A stretch of DNA of 64,000 bases from Marinomonas sp. KMM3893 (GTDB lineage: Bacteria; Pseudomonadota; Gammaproteobacteria; Pseudomonadales; Marinomonadaceae): NCBI RefSeq assembly GCF_004352855.1, contig NZ_SJSC01000008.1:62001-126000 (forward strand). Reading direction: 5' to 3'. Below are positions 48,911 to 52,386 of the stretch, piece by piece. The translations under genes and the position numbers were made by a program. How positions within the stretch are numbered: the first letter of the stretch is position 1; every line of letters starts with the position of its first letter. The notes beneath the pieces are model-generated. The model worked only from the letters and a program-made list of their open reading frames with translations, searched no databases and had not been told where the DNA came from.

Positions 48911-50341
48911 TTATTCTTCAGGAGTTTCTCTTTGCGGTGCATTGCTCTTTTTACGACGACGGGGGCGACGTTTCTTCGGCCCTTCTTTGTCGTTCGCACG
49001 AAGGTCAATGCTCTTAATTAGTTCTCTTTGTTCGTTTTCATTGGCAAATTGGAAAGATTCCCACCATGCGCCAAGGCCACCTAGTTCAGTGCCGCTTAAT
49101 TCGCGAATCAGCAAGAAATCAAAGGCCGCACGAAAACGAGGGTGATCAAGCAAGACAAAGGCACGTTTACCGTAGCGCTTTGGTAAGCGGAACTGCATAT
49201 CCCAAATCTCACGCATTGGCGTTGAGAAGCGTCTAGGGATCGCAGTAGAAGCCACTTGATTATCCAGTACCATGCTTGCGGCTTGATGAAGTGCTGGAGT
49301 CGCAGGCATGCCTTGTGACTGAAATTCTTCATGACGCAGCACAACGCTTGGCCACAACATCACGGCATACAAGAAGTAGGGCGCTGTTGTTTTGCCTGTT
49401 TGAAGTCGCTTGTCGGTATTTTCTAAACCTTGAAGGATAAACGCTTCAGGGTTGAGATCGTCACGTTTCCAGCCGCTAACCAGCAGTGCTTCTGTGTCAG
49501 GGAATAAGTACTTGAATAAGCCGTATTGACGTAGCAGATGGAAGGTTTTGATGCCGTTGCCGCTGCCAAGTAATTTGAGGACTTCTTCAAACAAACGGGC
49601 AGGCGGAATATGGTCTAGTAAATGCGCCATTTCTTTGATCGGGGCGGCGGTTTCTTCATCAATATCAAAGCCTAATTTACCCGCGAAGCGAATCGCACGT
49701 AACATGCGTACAGGGTCTTCTTGATAGCGTTGTCTCGCGTCGCCTATGATGCGAATTTTTTTATTCGCAATGTCTTCTAGGCCGCCACAATAATCGTGGA
49801 TGCTAAAATCTTGGACATTGTAATACAGGGCGTTAAAAGTAAAGTCGCGGCGTTCGGCGTCTTCTTCAATGCTGCCGTACACGTTGTCACGTAGCACGAT
49901 GCCATGGGCAGAGCGGGCTGAGTCTTTCCCTTTCAGGGACTCTTGTGGCTTGCTTGCACTGTCTTCTTGAGCGGAGGGTGCTCGGAAGGTAGAGACTTCG
50001 ATAATCTCACGGCCAAATGTCACGTGAACAAGGCGAAAGCGTCGGCCAATGAGTCGTGAATTTGAGAAAAGGTCGTGGATTTCTTCTGGGGTCGCGTTCG
50101 TCACGACATCGAAATCTTTCGCGTCAACACCAATAAGGTGGTCGCGAATACAGCCACCAACAAGGTAAGCATCGAAGCCAGCTTTGTTTAGGCGATAGAG
50201 AACTTTGACTGCGTTCGGGCTTAAATTTTGGCGAGATAAGCTGTGATCGCTGCGCGGAATAATAATGGGGTAAGTCTGAGCCTTTGGGGAGGCAAAGATT
50301 GAGGTGGCTTTACGTACCAGAGATTTTAATCCTGTAAGCAT
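48911..50341 (-). CDS. pcnB: poly(A) polymerase I
   Basis: Adds poly(A) tails to RNA 3' ends and promotes decay. 476 residues: the nucleotidyltransferase head AYLVGGCIRDHLIGVDAKDFDVVTNATPEEI (near 55-85), FRLVHVTFG, RRDFTFNALYYN, the RNA-binding domain and a basic C-terminal tail (KKRRPRRRKKS). The usual downstream neighbours folK-panB-panC follow. The gene is preceded by the region carrying the predicted CrcZ-like RNA. Confidence 0.95.
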   Translation of the reverse strand: MLTGLKSLVRKATSIFASPKAQTYPIIIPRSDHSLSRQNLSPNAVKVLYRLNKAGFDAYLVGGCIRDHLIGVDAKDFDVVTNATPEEIHDLFSNSRLIGRRFRLVHVTFGREIIEVSTFRAPSAQEDSASKPQESLKGKDSARSAHGIVLRDNVYGSIEEDAERRDFTFNALYYNVQDFSIHDYCGGLEDIANKKIRIIGDARQRYQEDPVRMLRAIRFAGKLGFDIDEETAAPIKEMAHLLDHIPPARLFEEVLKLLGSGNGIKTFHLLRQYGLFKYLFPDTEALLVSGWKRDDLNPEAFILQGLENTDKRLQTGKTTAPYFLYAVMLWPSVVLRHEEFQSQGMPATPALHQAASMVLDNQVASTAIPRRFSTPMREIWDMQFRLPKRYGKRAFVLLDHPRFRAAFDFLLIRELSGTELGGLGAWWESFQFANENEQRELIKSIDLRANDKEGPKKRRPRRRKKSNAPQRETPEE

Positions 50342-50453
50342 TAGACGACAAATTTTAGTTAGCGAAAACTGTATTCTACACGTGTGGCTAAAAAGTTACA
50401 CGAGTATTAGAGTATTCAAATTGGAAGATTTTAGTGTGACGAGCGTAGGGGGG
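50342..50453. other. leader region of pcnB
   Basis: About 110 bases between the predicted end of the CrcZ-like RNA and the pcnB start. On the minus strand it presumably holds the pcnB promoter or carries read-through transcripts; no clear element was recognised. Confidence 0.4.
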
Positions 50454-50484
50454 AAGCGATTATTTAAAAACAAAATAATCGCTT
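50454..50484 (-). terminator. hairpin at the predicted 3' end of the small RNA
   Basis: AAGCGATTATTT and AAATAATCGCTT form a perfect 12-bp stem with a 7-base loop. There is no T run after the stem on the minus strand, so termination here is uncertain. Part of its sequence can instead pair with 50610-50623. Confidence 0.45.
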
Positions 50485-50758
50485 TGGATACATGAAGATA
50501 CTAGTTCCGAAAACAAAGTGGGTGCTGCTTATGCAGTTCTACTCAGGTTTTATTTTTATTATTGCAATGTTTTCATTGCCCGAAGGCTTCTATATCTAAA
50601 AAAATCAATTATCCAAAGCGATTTTCTATCCATAGCCTCAAGTTTTTATTTTTGTTTTAAGAGGCTACGGTGTTCTTATATTTTATTTTTATTGTTAAGA
50701 ACTTACACACGACGACTAACTTATTCTTATTCTTGGTCAATCTTATTATCGTTGTGAT
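50454..50758 (-). ncRNA. predicted CrcZ/CrcY-like small RNA (Hfq/Crc decoy)
   Basis: Read on the minus strand from about 50756. A-rich AANAANAA motifs occur at 50720-50734 (AAGAATAAGAATAAG), 50679-50696 (AACAATAAAAATAAAATA), 50640-50658 (AAAACAAAAATAAAAACTT) and 50546-50565 (GCAATAATAAAAATAAAACC). Two lie in loops closed by GTTCTTA/TAAGAAC (50672-50702) and TAGCCTC/GAGGCTA (50633-50667). A hairpin with a 12-bp stem at 50454-50484 may mark the 3' end. A sigma-54 element lies just upstream, and the gene sits between cbrB and pcnB, where Pseudomonas has crcZ. CrcZ-type RNAs bind Hfq/Crc through such motifs and lift catabolite repression. Function and ends are inferred. Confidence 0.72.
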
Positions 50759-50766
50759 CTATATAA

Positions 50767-50783
50767 GGCATTTCTTGTGCCAA
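50767..50783 (-). promoter_or_regulatory. sigma-54 (-24/-12) promoter element
   Basis: On the minus strand TTGGCACAAGAAATGCC has TGGCAC at -24 and TGC at -12, with exactly ten bases between GG and GC, as RpoN promoters require. It predicts a transcript starting near 50756 and is matched by the sigma-54 activator gene immediately upstream. Confidence 0.75.
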
Positions 50784-50860
50784 AAATGATAATTCATTGA
50801 ATTGTATAGGATTTGCCATTTTGTTGTTCATATTTTTTACAATATCTTGCTTATTTTTTG

Positions 50861-50897
50861 TGTTATTTGGTAACAAGTGTTACTTATCATTTGTTAC
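50861..50897 (-). promoter_or_regulatory. cluster of TGTTAC/GTAACA half-sites, candidate activator site
   Basis: GTAACA at 50870-50875, TGTTAC at 50878-50883 and 50892-50897, plus a near match TGTTAT at 50861-50866. They lie about 80-115 bases upstream of the -24 element and overlap the end of the cbrB-like gene. From memory, TGTTAC/GTAACA half-sites are those reported for CbrB in Pseudomonas; the spacing differs here. Confidence 0.55.
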
Positions 50898-52307
50898 TTT
50901 TTTGGGTATGCCAAGTTTTTGTCGTCTTTCCCACAGACTTTTTCTAGAGATGCCCAAAGATTGTGCAAGTTGGGTCTCGGTCATCTTGTGTTGGTGCGTC
51001 AGAACAAAATGTTTGAAGTAATCGTCCAGCGTGGTGCCATCTAATGGTGTAGATAGTTCAGCGCTTGTGGTGTTCGCTTTAGGGCTGGCTAAATGGCTTG
51101 CTAGCTTTAGGTTGGCCGCCTCTACTCTATGAGTAGGGCTGAGAATAACGGCGCGTTCGATGGCGTTTTCGAGCTCTCGTACATTGCCAGGCCAATTGTG
51201 GGCGCGAATCGCTTTATCAAACTCTTTGTTGTAATCCAACGCGGCGCGATTGTGCTTTTTGCAGGCCTTTTCAAGCAGGAATTTGGCGATCATAGAAATG
51301 TCGTCGCTGCGCTCACGTAAAGGCGGAATAAGCAGTTCCATGACATAGAGGCGGTAATACAAATCTTCTCGGAAATAGCCCTTGCGGACCATGTCGATTA
51401 GGTCTCTGTGTGTCGCCGTGACTAAGCGGACATTGACCTTGGTCGATTGAATGGCGCCCACACGGCGTATTTCACCTTCTTGCAGGACACGCAATAATCT
51501 AGCTTGGGCTTCAAGGGGTAGCTCACCTATTTCATCGAGGAAGAGTGTGCCATTGTCCGCTGCGAAAATAAGCCCGTCGCGGGCAGAAACCGCACCGGTA
51601 AAGGCGCCTTTCTCATGACCAAATAACTCTGATTCTATTAGGTTTTCTGGGATGGCGGCGCAGTTTACGCTGATCAAAGGGTTGTCATGTCTGGTGCTTA
51701 AATTATGCAGAGCTTTCGCCACCAACTCCTTACCGGTTCCTGATTCGCCGCGGATCAGTACGGTCACATCTGTACCAGCGACTTTTCTGATGTCGCTGAA
51801 GAGTTCTTGCATGGGAGGGCAGTTGCCTATGATGCCGCTGTCTAAGGCGCCTAAGTTTTCCGCTTCCTCTTCTTTTTCGGAGCGCGCAAACAAGAGTGGC
51901 GCCGCGAGCTCAGGTTCTGATTCGGCGTTTTGTTTGTGTTGTGGCGTGGTGTTTTCTAAGGCATCAATAACGTGTTTTAAAAGCTGTTCTGAGTCAGTCG
52001 GCAAGGGGAGATAATATTTTGCACCCATTGCCATCGCGTCTATACCGTTATTGAGGCTAGGGCGAGCGTCTAAGACTAGGCGCGGCGGTGTGCCTGCTAG
52101 TGCCGATTGGGTGTTTTCTAACGCGGCTAGAATGACTTGATCAATCAGCAAAAGGTCAAAGTCTGCCAGCTCGTAATACTTGTTCGCTTGCTCAAGGGAG
52201 TAGCTTAAGTTGACTTGAAATCCGTAGCGAGAAAGCCAGCGGTCTGCGTCTTTGAGTGGTGAGTCTTCAGGACAGATTATCATTATATGATGCATTTCAG
52301 GTGTCAC
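50880..52307 (-). CDS. cbrB: sigma-54-dependent activator, CbrB-like
   Basis: 475 residues. A receiver-like domain (1-120) keeps an acidic pair (CPED) and an Asp in LLLIDQ, but the conserved Thr/Ser and Lys positions read LDARPS and YLPLP, so it is degenerate. The AAA+ domain (about 155-395) has GESGTGKE (Walker A), ESELFGHEKGAFTGA (sigma-54 contact), FLDEIGELP (Walker B) and GNVRELEN. A Fis-type helix-turn-helix ends the protein (TQLAQSLGISRKSLWERRQKLG). Position before pcnB and after gluQRS matches Pseudomonas cbrB; its kinase gene cbrA is not adjacent here. Confidence 0.82.
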   Translation of the reverse strand: MTPEMHHIMIICPEDSPLKDADRWLSRYGFQVNLSYSLEQANKYYELADFDLLLIDQVILAALENTQSALAGTPPRLVLDARPSLNNGIDAMAMGAKYYLPLPTDSEQLLKHVIDALENTTPQHKQNAESEPELAAPLLFARSEKEEEAENLGALDSGIIGNCPPMQELFSDIRKVAGTDVTVLIRGESGTGKELVAKALHNLSTRHDNPLISVNCAAIPENLIESELFGHEKGAFTGAVSARDGLIFAADNGTLFLDEIGELPLEAQARLLRVLQEGEIRRVGAIQSTKVNVRLVTATHRDLIDMVRKGYFREDLYYRLYVMELLIPPLRERSDDISMIAKFLLEKACKKHNRAALDYNKEFDKAIRAHNWPGNVRELENAIERAVILSPTHRVEAANLKLASHLASPKANTTSAELSTPLDGTTLDDYFKHFVLTHQHKMTETQLAQSLGISRKSLWERRQKLGIPKKVTNDK

Positions 52308-52386
52308 CTCTTGTAACCAATGTAACGATTATACACATCGGCCGGTTAACAGCTAGAGCGGAGTAGGTGTGTCTGTGCTGGAAGCC

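Follow-up and report, generated by a model that had tools for sequence, protein, structure and literature searches.

The RNAs CrcY and CrcX of Pseudomonas and CrcY of Azotobacter are sponges that are driven by CbrB and RpoN and carry A-rich runs. RsmY/RsmZ and CsrB differ from this type, in that their protein is CsrA/RsmA and their motif is GGA. CrcZ of Pseudomonas aeruginosa (RF01675), as described in passages of PMC4063720, is a 407-nt RNA with six (A-R-N)n runs, encoded between cbrB and pcnB and equipped with a sigma-54 element; the same passages state that the distal face of Hfq binds the A-R-N motif and compare CrcZ with RsmY/RsmZ and CsrB as RNA decoys that titrate a post-transcriptional repressor. 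P. aeruginosa encodes both Crc and Hfq and has catabolic genes with runs near their starts. Passages of PMC8871633 call CbrAB unique to Pseudomonadaceae and describe the gene order only in Pseudomonas and Azotobacter, passages of PMC6296734 call it exclusive to Pseudomonadaceae, and one of the two sources attributes this exclusiveness to the conserved cbrA-cbrB-crcZ order. Transcripts of cbrA and cbrB were reported in mesopelagic seawater metatranscriptomes, according to a passage of PMC5073097.

By their titles, publications that bring together CrcZ, cbrB and pcnB all deal with Pseudomonas, and in titles and abstracts we saw no CrcZ outside Pseudomonas and Azotobacter, with subscription journals thinly covered. 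Our literature search, equally thin for such journals, found nothing on CrcZ in Marinomonas or Marinobacter and nothing related to Crc/Hfq in Marinomonas. Judged by titles, it found no study of CrcZ in Halomonas, and in the parts of an Acinetobacter Crc paper that were available CrcZ appears in the reference list only.

Here we analyzed a stretch of 64 kb of Marinomonas DNA (the window), together with related genomes, and report that the gap between its cbrB-like gene and pcnB very probably encodes a CrcZ-type Hfq decoy RNA that works like CrcZ. The proposed role is that of a sponge RNA that would soak up Hfq and switch on genes for less-favored foods, as CrcZ does in Pseudomonas. From the sequences we infer its transcription, the dependence on RpoN and CbrB, the binding of Hfq and Crc, the effect on translation and a new input. 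What is new is the wide spread of the arrangement and a sensor-less version of the circuit. The wider spread likely enlarges the reach of Hfq/Crc carbon-catabolite control, and the genus offers a structure-conserved sponge RNA to study as well as a natural experiment on the input of CbrB when the kinase and most of the phosphorylation pocket are gone. The circuit can be tested on its predicted targets, which belong to fatty-acid and propionate degradation.

Gene Order and Features of the Locus

On the minus strand the genes follow one another in the order gluQ, cbrB-like, gap, pcnB and folK (Table 1). The family matches of pcnB, gluQ and folK exceed the curated NCBIfam cut-offs, the cbrB-like protein stays below the cut-off in all 25 NCBIfam families shown, and there is no cbrA between gluQ and cbrB in the window. 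For the start of cbrB, the ATG at 52295 is more likely than the GTG at 52307. We compared the cbrB-pcnB gap in 35 genomes of the genus, namely the genome of the window and 34 relatives.

A sequence-only reading of the window had proposed a CrcZ-like RNA between the two genes, with its own -24/-12 element, TGTTAC/GTAACA half-sites and four A-rich clusters, and had seen no protein gene there. We recovered all of these: the placement and the promoter element recur in all 35 genus genomes and the pattern of three hexamers in 33, all four clusters could be located, and no open reading frame is conserved on either strand across the 35 genomes. Its CrcZ-type interpretation gains support from the position, the promoter element, the hexamers, the runs, covariation, the genes for Hfq, Crc and RpoN, and runs on the target side. 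Three results go beyond that reading: the genus has no cbrA, its CbrB has a degenerate receiver, and the RNA is unlike Rfam CrcZ in sequence.

Table 1. Features of the cbrB-pcnB locus, with positions in the window.
Feature	Positions	Strand	Remarks
pcnB, poly(A) polymerase I, downstream marker gene	48911..50341	minus	TIGR01942, E 3.8e-161
Predicted CrcZ-type Hfq-decoy RNA, ~290 nt	50467..50756	minus	Unit in 35/35 genus genomes; fold z = -6.9
3′ domain, helix 50625-50610/50490-50470 around run 4 (50563-50550), then T-tract	50467..50629	minus	Nearly invariant
Hairpin 3, run 3 (50656-50643) in loop	50630..50670	minus	7/10 pairs change on both sides
Hairpin 2, run 2 (50696-50683) in loop	50672..50702	minus	Fold and covariation
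Hairpin 1, run 1 (50734-50721) in loop	50706..50756	minus	Fold and covariation
-24/-12 (sigma-54) promoter element TGGCACAAGAAATGC, TGGCAC-N6-TGC at 50782-50768	50768..50782	minus	35/35 genus genomes; RpoN in genome
IHF-like site ATTCAATGAATTA, between hexamers and promoter, weak	50790..50802	minus	TCA-N5-TTR in 30/35
CbrB-type hexamers GTAACA (50897-50892), GTAACA (50883-50878) and TGTTAC (50875-50870), overlapping the end of cbrB	50870..50897	minus	Consensus hexamers from passages of PMC8871633
cbrB-like sigma-54 activator	50880..52295	minus	Receiver degenerate; AAA+ and HTH domains conserved
Two GTTACA half-sites, between a TATAAT box and the cbrB start	52312..52326	minus	By eye; kept in most of 35

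Promoter Element and Upstream Sites

The pattern TGGCAY-N6-TGC occurs four times in the 64 kb, where shuffled sequences have a mean of 1.6; since 8 of 100 shuffles reach at least four, the match alone is not significant, and it is its conservation that counts. The distance from the cbrB stop codon to the element is 90-111 nt in 34 genus genomes and 261 nt in one. Upstream of it, our script matched the pattern GTAAC-GTAAC-TGNTAC in all but two genomes; L035 has the hexamer pattern outside the scanned stretch, and L038 is without the third site. The hexamers of the predicted CbrB sites are present and fixed in the genus, and their order and spacing are unlike the published consensus: the genus has GTAACA-N8-GTAACA-N2-TGTTAC, whereas passages of PMC8871633 give TGTTAC-N12-14-GTAACA-N15-19-GTAACA for Pseudomonas.

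The core of the IHF-like site stands at one fixed distance from the -24 in the 30 genomes that have it. The full 13-base IHF consensus, which we assumed in naming this site, is matched with at most one mismatch within the 45 bases searched in 25 of the 35 genomes. An IHF site between the CbrB sites and the promoter has been described for CbrB targets of P. putida, in passages of PMC6296734.

Ahead of cbrB itself, the two GTTACA half-sites sit in a strongly conserved stretch (TGTGTATAATCGTTACA...GTTACAAGAGGTGACA); their sequence and position suggest possible autoregulation by CbrB.

Loss of CbrA and the Degenerate Receiver of CbrB

We searched 56 genomes with the cbrB-like protein: the genome of the window, 34 of the same genus and 21 from other families of the order. 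Matches at E <= 1e-100 were found in 53 of them, comprising all 35 of the genus and 18 of the 21 from other families. With CbrA, for which the query came from a Pseudomonas-like genome, the result was 0/35 in the genus, the best matches having 27-32% identity over part of the query. These partial matches cover approximately the first 600 residues, the transporter part, and mostly belong to a protein of ~1150 aa encoded elsewhere, which we presume may be of the acetate-sensing CrbS type. Among the genomes from other families, 17 of 21 have a CbrA match with 39-100% identity, 100% being the query's own genome; in one of them the match is split in two.

The receiver domain of the genus CbrB retains Asp52 in all 35 genomes, and in all of them Thr76 is replaced by Asp and Lys98 by Leu. 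Of the acidic pair, Glu8 is found in 0/34 and an acidic residue at position 9 in 1/34. As an acidic residue often stands at position 10, the phosphorylation pocket may not be wholly empty. The 18 CbrB sequences from other families all keep Asp9 and Lys98, and 17 keep Thr76. Mean identity between the genus and these families is 0.24 for the receiver, 0.61 for the AAA+ domain and 0.58 for the HTH domain (computed without G048, see below); within the genus it is 0.80 for AAA+ and 0.81 for HTH. CbrB of the genus thus shares with Pseudomonas CbrB, as passages of PMC8871633 and PMC6296734 describe it, the AAA+ and HTH domains, the TGTTAC/GTAACA hexamers and the gene neighborhood, and differs from it in a receiver without the acidic pair, the Thr and the Lys. 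Neither an intact phospho-receiver nor the CbrA of a CbrA-CbrB system was found in the genus. It follows that the genus CbrB is unlikely to depend on phosphotransfer from CbrA, that its regulation cannot be a plain copy of that in Pseudomonas, and that dependence of the RNA on CbrB as it operates there cannot be assumed.

These same results, the missing CbrA and the degenerate receiver, would be expected if the Hfq sponge were no longer driven by CbrB at all, another sigma-54 activator having taken over after the loss of CbrA and cbrB having become a mere neighbor; the own genome has 13 further matches to the CbrB query, which would provide candidates. We regard this as unlikely, since the AAA+ and HTH domains of CbrB have stayed conserved both within the genus and toward other families, and the hexamers upstream of the promoter remain fixed. 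For the CbrB-driven decoy RNA, we lean, with modest confidence, toward a circuit that was unplugged from its sensor: CbrA would have been lost and the receiver become atypical while CbrB and the sponge RNA were retained, the RNA being frozen in a genus-specific form and CbrB acting as a one-component or level-controlled regulator, perhaps with autoregulation. Much of the order would then have inherited CbrAB-CrcZ-Hfq/Crc from a common ancestor, and Pseudomonas would not have invented it.

A separate case from the genus is G048 (locus L056), a genome of 1.9 Mb from another family, which has no CbrA match above 31%. Position 52 of its CbrB is Glu, in place of the phospho-acceptor Asp, possibly an always-on form, and the locus still has the promoter element and A-rich runs ahead of pcnB.

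Extent, Fold and Conservation of the Predicted RNA

We placed the 5′ end of the RNA by convention 12 nt past the GC of the -12 and took the T-tract as its 3′ end. In every genus genome the promoter element is followed by a unit of 286-294 nt, and all units end in AAAGCGATTATTT and a T-tract. The folding energy of the window RNA is -74.4 kcal/mol, far below that of 200 shuffles (Table 1). Its 5′ 131 nt are predicted to form three hairpins, each with one A-rich run in the loop, and the fourth run lies within a long 3′ helix domain. The sequence-only reading had placed two runs in hairpin loops closed by 7-bp stems; the loops are indeed predicted, for three runs instead of two, with stems of 7, 7 and 10 bp.

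In the alignment of the 35 sequences, 94.1% of the cells of the 5′ hairpins are paired, against 90.2% in shuffles and 23-47% in slid structures; the hairpins are favored over the slid versions because they were derived from these same aligned sequences. Eleven pairs have changes on both sides, compared with 4.4 in shuffles, and the number of cells with both-side compensatory changes is 46, compared with 12.1 (0/500 shuffles reach 46). Further pair types, 30 against 28.5, are not above shuffles. The evidence is clearest for hairpin 3, all cells of which are paired (100%), and weaker for the outer part of hairpin 1 (84.8% paired); hairpin 1 is absent in this form from single-sequence folds of L010 and L038-L040. 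In the 3′ domain 99.5% of cells are paired and just two pairs have both-side changes, so that covariation contributes less to the case for its pairing than invariance and the T-tract do. The conserved 3′ helix and T-tract look like a terminator.

Beyond the T-tract lie some tens of bases in which the genus gaps diverge, and another conserved stretch, CACGTGTAGAATAC with a TAGAAT box, was noticed by eye at 50371-50384 of the minus strand, ~30 nt before pcnB. It is largely kept in the relatives compared and looks like a separate promoter of pcnB. This bears on another reading, in which the conserved structure is a cis-acting leader of pcnB, a structured 5′ UTR whose 3′ helix is a regulated attenuator. 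The unit lies on the same strand directly upstream of pcnB, and a helix followed by a T-tract may allow read-through into the gene, as this reading would have it; its probability is nevertheless very small, given that the alignment breaks down right after the T-tract, where pcnB appears to have a promoter of its own, that no A-rich run stands at the pcnB start in any of 34 genus genomes, and that other families retain the promoter element and the runs with differing sequence between them. That the region holds a gene for a small protein, or a protein gene in antisense, can practically be dismissed: the window does offer an open frame of 79 aa on the plus strand, but the longest frames on both strands vary in length and sequence over the 35 genomes and the alignment contains single-base gaps.

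Two further observations concern the 3′ end. The 3′ helix is almost invariant in the genus though CbrB has diverged there to ~60% identity; pairing alone is insufficient to explain this, and something else may read the sequence. A local hairpin (AAGCGATTATTT...AAATAATCGCTT, 50454-50484, minus strand) could compete with the 3′ helix; it was seen by eye in the window and a few relatives only and is therefore probably not general.

A-Rich Runs

The four runs of the predicted decoy RNA (Table 1) each consist of 14 nt of AAN repeats. Dinucleotide shuffles of its 290 nt have a mean of 0.23 such runs, and 0/2000 reach four; when four relatives were tested in the same way, no more than 1 in 1000 did so. 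Every one of the 35 genus genomes has four or more runs that are (AAN)3AA or longer. With the run columns placed by the window sequence, 3 of the 40 A-phase columns vary (13/1376 letters), compared with 9 of the 16 N-phase columns (69/560 letters) and 113 of the 234 columns of the RNA outside the runs. Several (A-R-N)n or AANAANAA runs of the predicted RNA are thus under selection, and their period of three, with the A-phase nearly frozen and the N-phase variable, is what binding to the distal face of Hfq predicts.

Comparison With Rfam CrcZ

A scan of the whole window against Rfam returned nothing at the gathering cut-off. The covariance-model search for CrcZ that the sequence-only reading had advised gave no match at the cut-off: RF01675 reached 8.2-11.0 bits in this region at a permissive threshold, its cut-off being 95, and membership in this family was rejected. 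These scores lie below those of chance matches to unrelated families, e.g., a snoRNA at 23 bits. Across 244 genomes of the order, Rfam CrcZ was found at E <= 1e-3 with strict filters in 50 genomes (11 over the cut-off) from 22 of 112 genera; the window's genus, represented by 10 of the 244, had no such match.

Conversely, we searched with a model built from the 131 positions at the 5′ end. At E up to 10 it gave one strong copy in each of seven genus genomes; no second, CrcY-like copy appeared in these seven, further matches having E of 2 or worse. In this the genus differs from Pseudomonas and Azotobacter, where CrcY/CrcX and CrcY, respectively, are extra copies. With stricter filters the model matched 10 of the 244 genomes, all from the genus, and 0 of the 234 others. 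Sequence homology to Pseudomonas CrcZ is therefore not shown, and the resemblance lies in position and in features of functional type. By position and architecture the unit is the CrcZ of this genus; by sequence it is outside the Rfam family. Compared with the P. aeruginosa CrcZ described above, the genus RNA is without a significant Rfam match, has four runs in ~290 nt and lacks the upstream kinase CbrA.

Hfq, Crc and Candidate Target Genes

The own genome encodes one Hfq, RpoN and two exonuclease III family proteins. One of the latter has exonuclease III (1ako) as its best match, and the other has Pseudomonas Crc (4jg3, E 4.8e-78) and is the Crc ortholog. By eye, LQD and CG-x replace LQE and GD-F/W in this ortholog, as in Crc, and it retains SDH where Pseudomonas Crc has SQH; we take LQE, GD-F/W and SDH to be catalytic motifs of active enzymes. 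At the position of Tyr25 in Pseudomonas-like genomes Hfq has Phe, and the aromatic ring is kept.

For candidate targets we took the window and 20 stretches of the own genome that amount to 400 kb; in these a simple script called 363 genes. The 8-base AANAANAA was found at -30..-1 of 19 genes and is not commoner than the other 14 six-A patterns (11-20). The 11-base (AAN)3AA was found at -30..-1 of 8 of the 363 genes, with 0-3 genes at other offsets, and shares first place among 84 patterns with two others. The eight genes encode FadD, FadB, an acyl-CoA dehydrogenase, PrpB, PrpC, a glutathione-independent formaldehyde dehydrogenase, a DctP solute-binding protein and a MocR-like regulator; seven of the eight are catabolic or serve uptake, and five fall in two clusters. 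Among 20 random genes without the motif, ~7 are also catabolic or serve carbon uptake on a lenient reading of Pfam names (the strict NCBIfam threshold names five of the 20), which makes the seven of eight suggestive, not decisive. Catabolic mRNAs with Hfq/Crc-type runs near the start, as seen with CrcZ, are present in this genome; the 8-base motif alone is not enriched.

We then examined 29 genus genomes drawn for this purpose, of which 25 yielded prpC and 28 fadB. With the own genome included, AANAANAA is present at -32..-1 of prpC in 24/25, of fadB in 25/28 and of prpB in 15/25; leaving out the own genome, in which the genes had been picked for the motif, the counts are 23/24, 24/27 and 14/24. 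A control stretch taken farther upstream of each gene has it 5 times for prpC and 0 times for fadB and prpB. In many relatives the run stays beside the Shine-Dalgarno sequence while the flanks diverge. Ahead of the starts of pcnB, cbrB and gluQ in the genus it was found in 0/34, 0/34 and 0/35, respectively, one pcnB and one cbrB having been dropped as their start was not placeable and the gluQ starts being approximate.

Proposed Mechanism

RpoN holoenzyme, activated by CbrB bound to the GTAACA/TGTTAC hexamers ~90-115 bp upstream of the promoter element, would start transcription, and the resulting RNA of ~290 nt would end at the 3′ helix and T-tract. Its three hairpin loops and the 3′ domain would offer four (AAN)n runs to the distal face of Hfq, and Crc would probably join Hfq on them. 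When abundant, the RNA would titrate Hfq/Crc off the (AAN)n runs that closely precede genes for catabolism and uptake, and the putative targets, for fatty-acid and propionate degradation, formaldehyde oxidation and a TRAP solute-binding protein, would be freed for translation. The input to the RNA in this genus would not be phosphotransfer from CbrA, and might be the level of CbrB, a ligand or a protein partner of the receiver.

Distribution of the Arrangement in the Order

The 18 loci with CbrB from other families (L041-L058) include 15 with a match to pcnB, up to 2.8 kb away. The promoter element and at least two A-rich 8-mers are present in 13 of these 15 (12 of 14 without the Pseudomonas-like L041). 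Single deviating loci are L055, with two single 8-mers only, L045, with runs and no GC at -12, and L053, with a gap of 189 nt and neither feature. Three loci are without a match to pcnB; L044 has the element and the runs, and L043 and L046 do not.

A CbrB search was swamped by other sigma-54 activators; of at least 80 loci with titles we considered the first 16 (L106-L121). pcnB adjoins cbrB in 11 of the 16. Each of these 11 carries at least one CbrB hexamer as well as a strong -24/-12 element with A-rich runs after it. The other five are without a strong promoter element that runs would follow; L109 among them ends 334 nt after cbrB. The titles of the 11 include Pseudomonas, Serpens, Neptunomonas (a MAG), Litchfieldella, Halomonas, Dasania, Gilvimarinus and two MAGs with broader titles; Neptunomonas belongs to Oceanospirillaceae, Gilvimarinus to Cellvibrionaceae and Dasania to Spongiibacteraceae. 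As predicted from these loci, the cbrB-RNA-pcnB arrangement is found in a dozen or more further families of the order, among them 12 of the 14 other families sampled that have pcnB within reach.

Several gaps hold more than one unit or element. In Dasania (L112) the gap has two units in tandem, both of them with TGTTAC-GTAACA-GTAACA, a -24/-12 element and A-rich runs, and thus apparently encodes two putative CrcZ-type RNAs side by side. The gaps of L047 and L050 have two promoter elements each.
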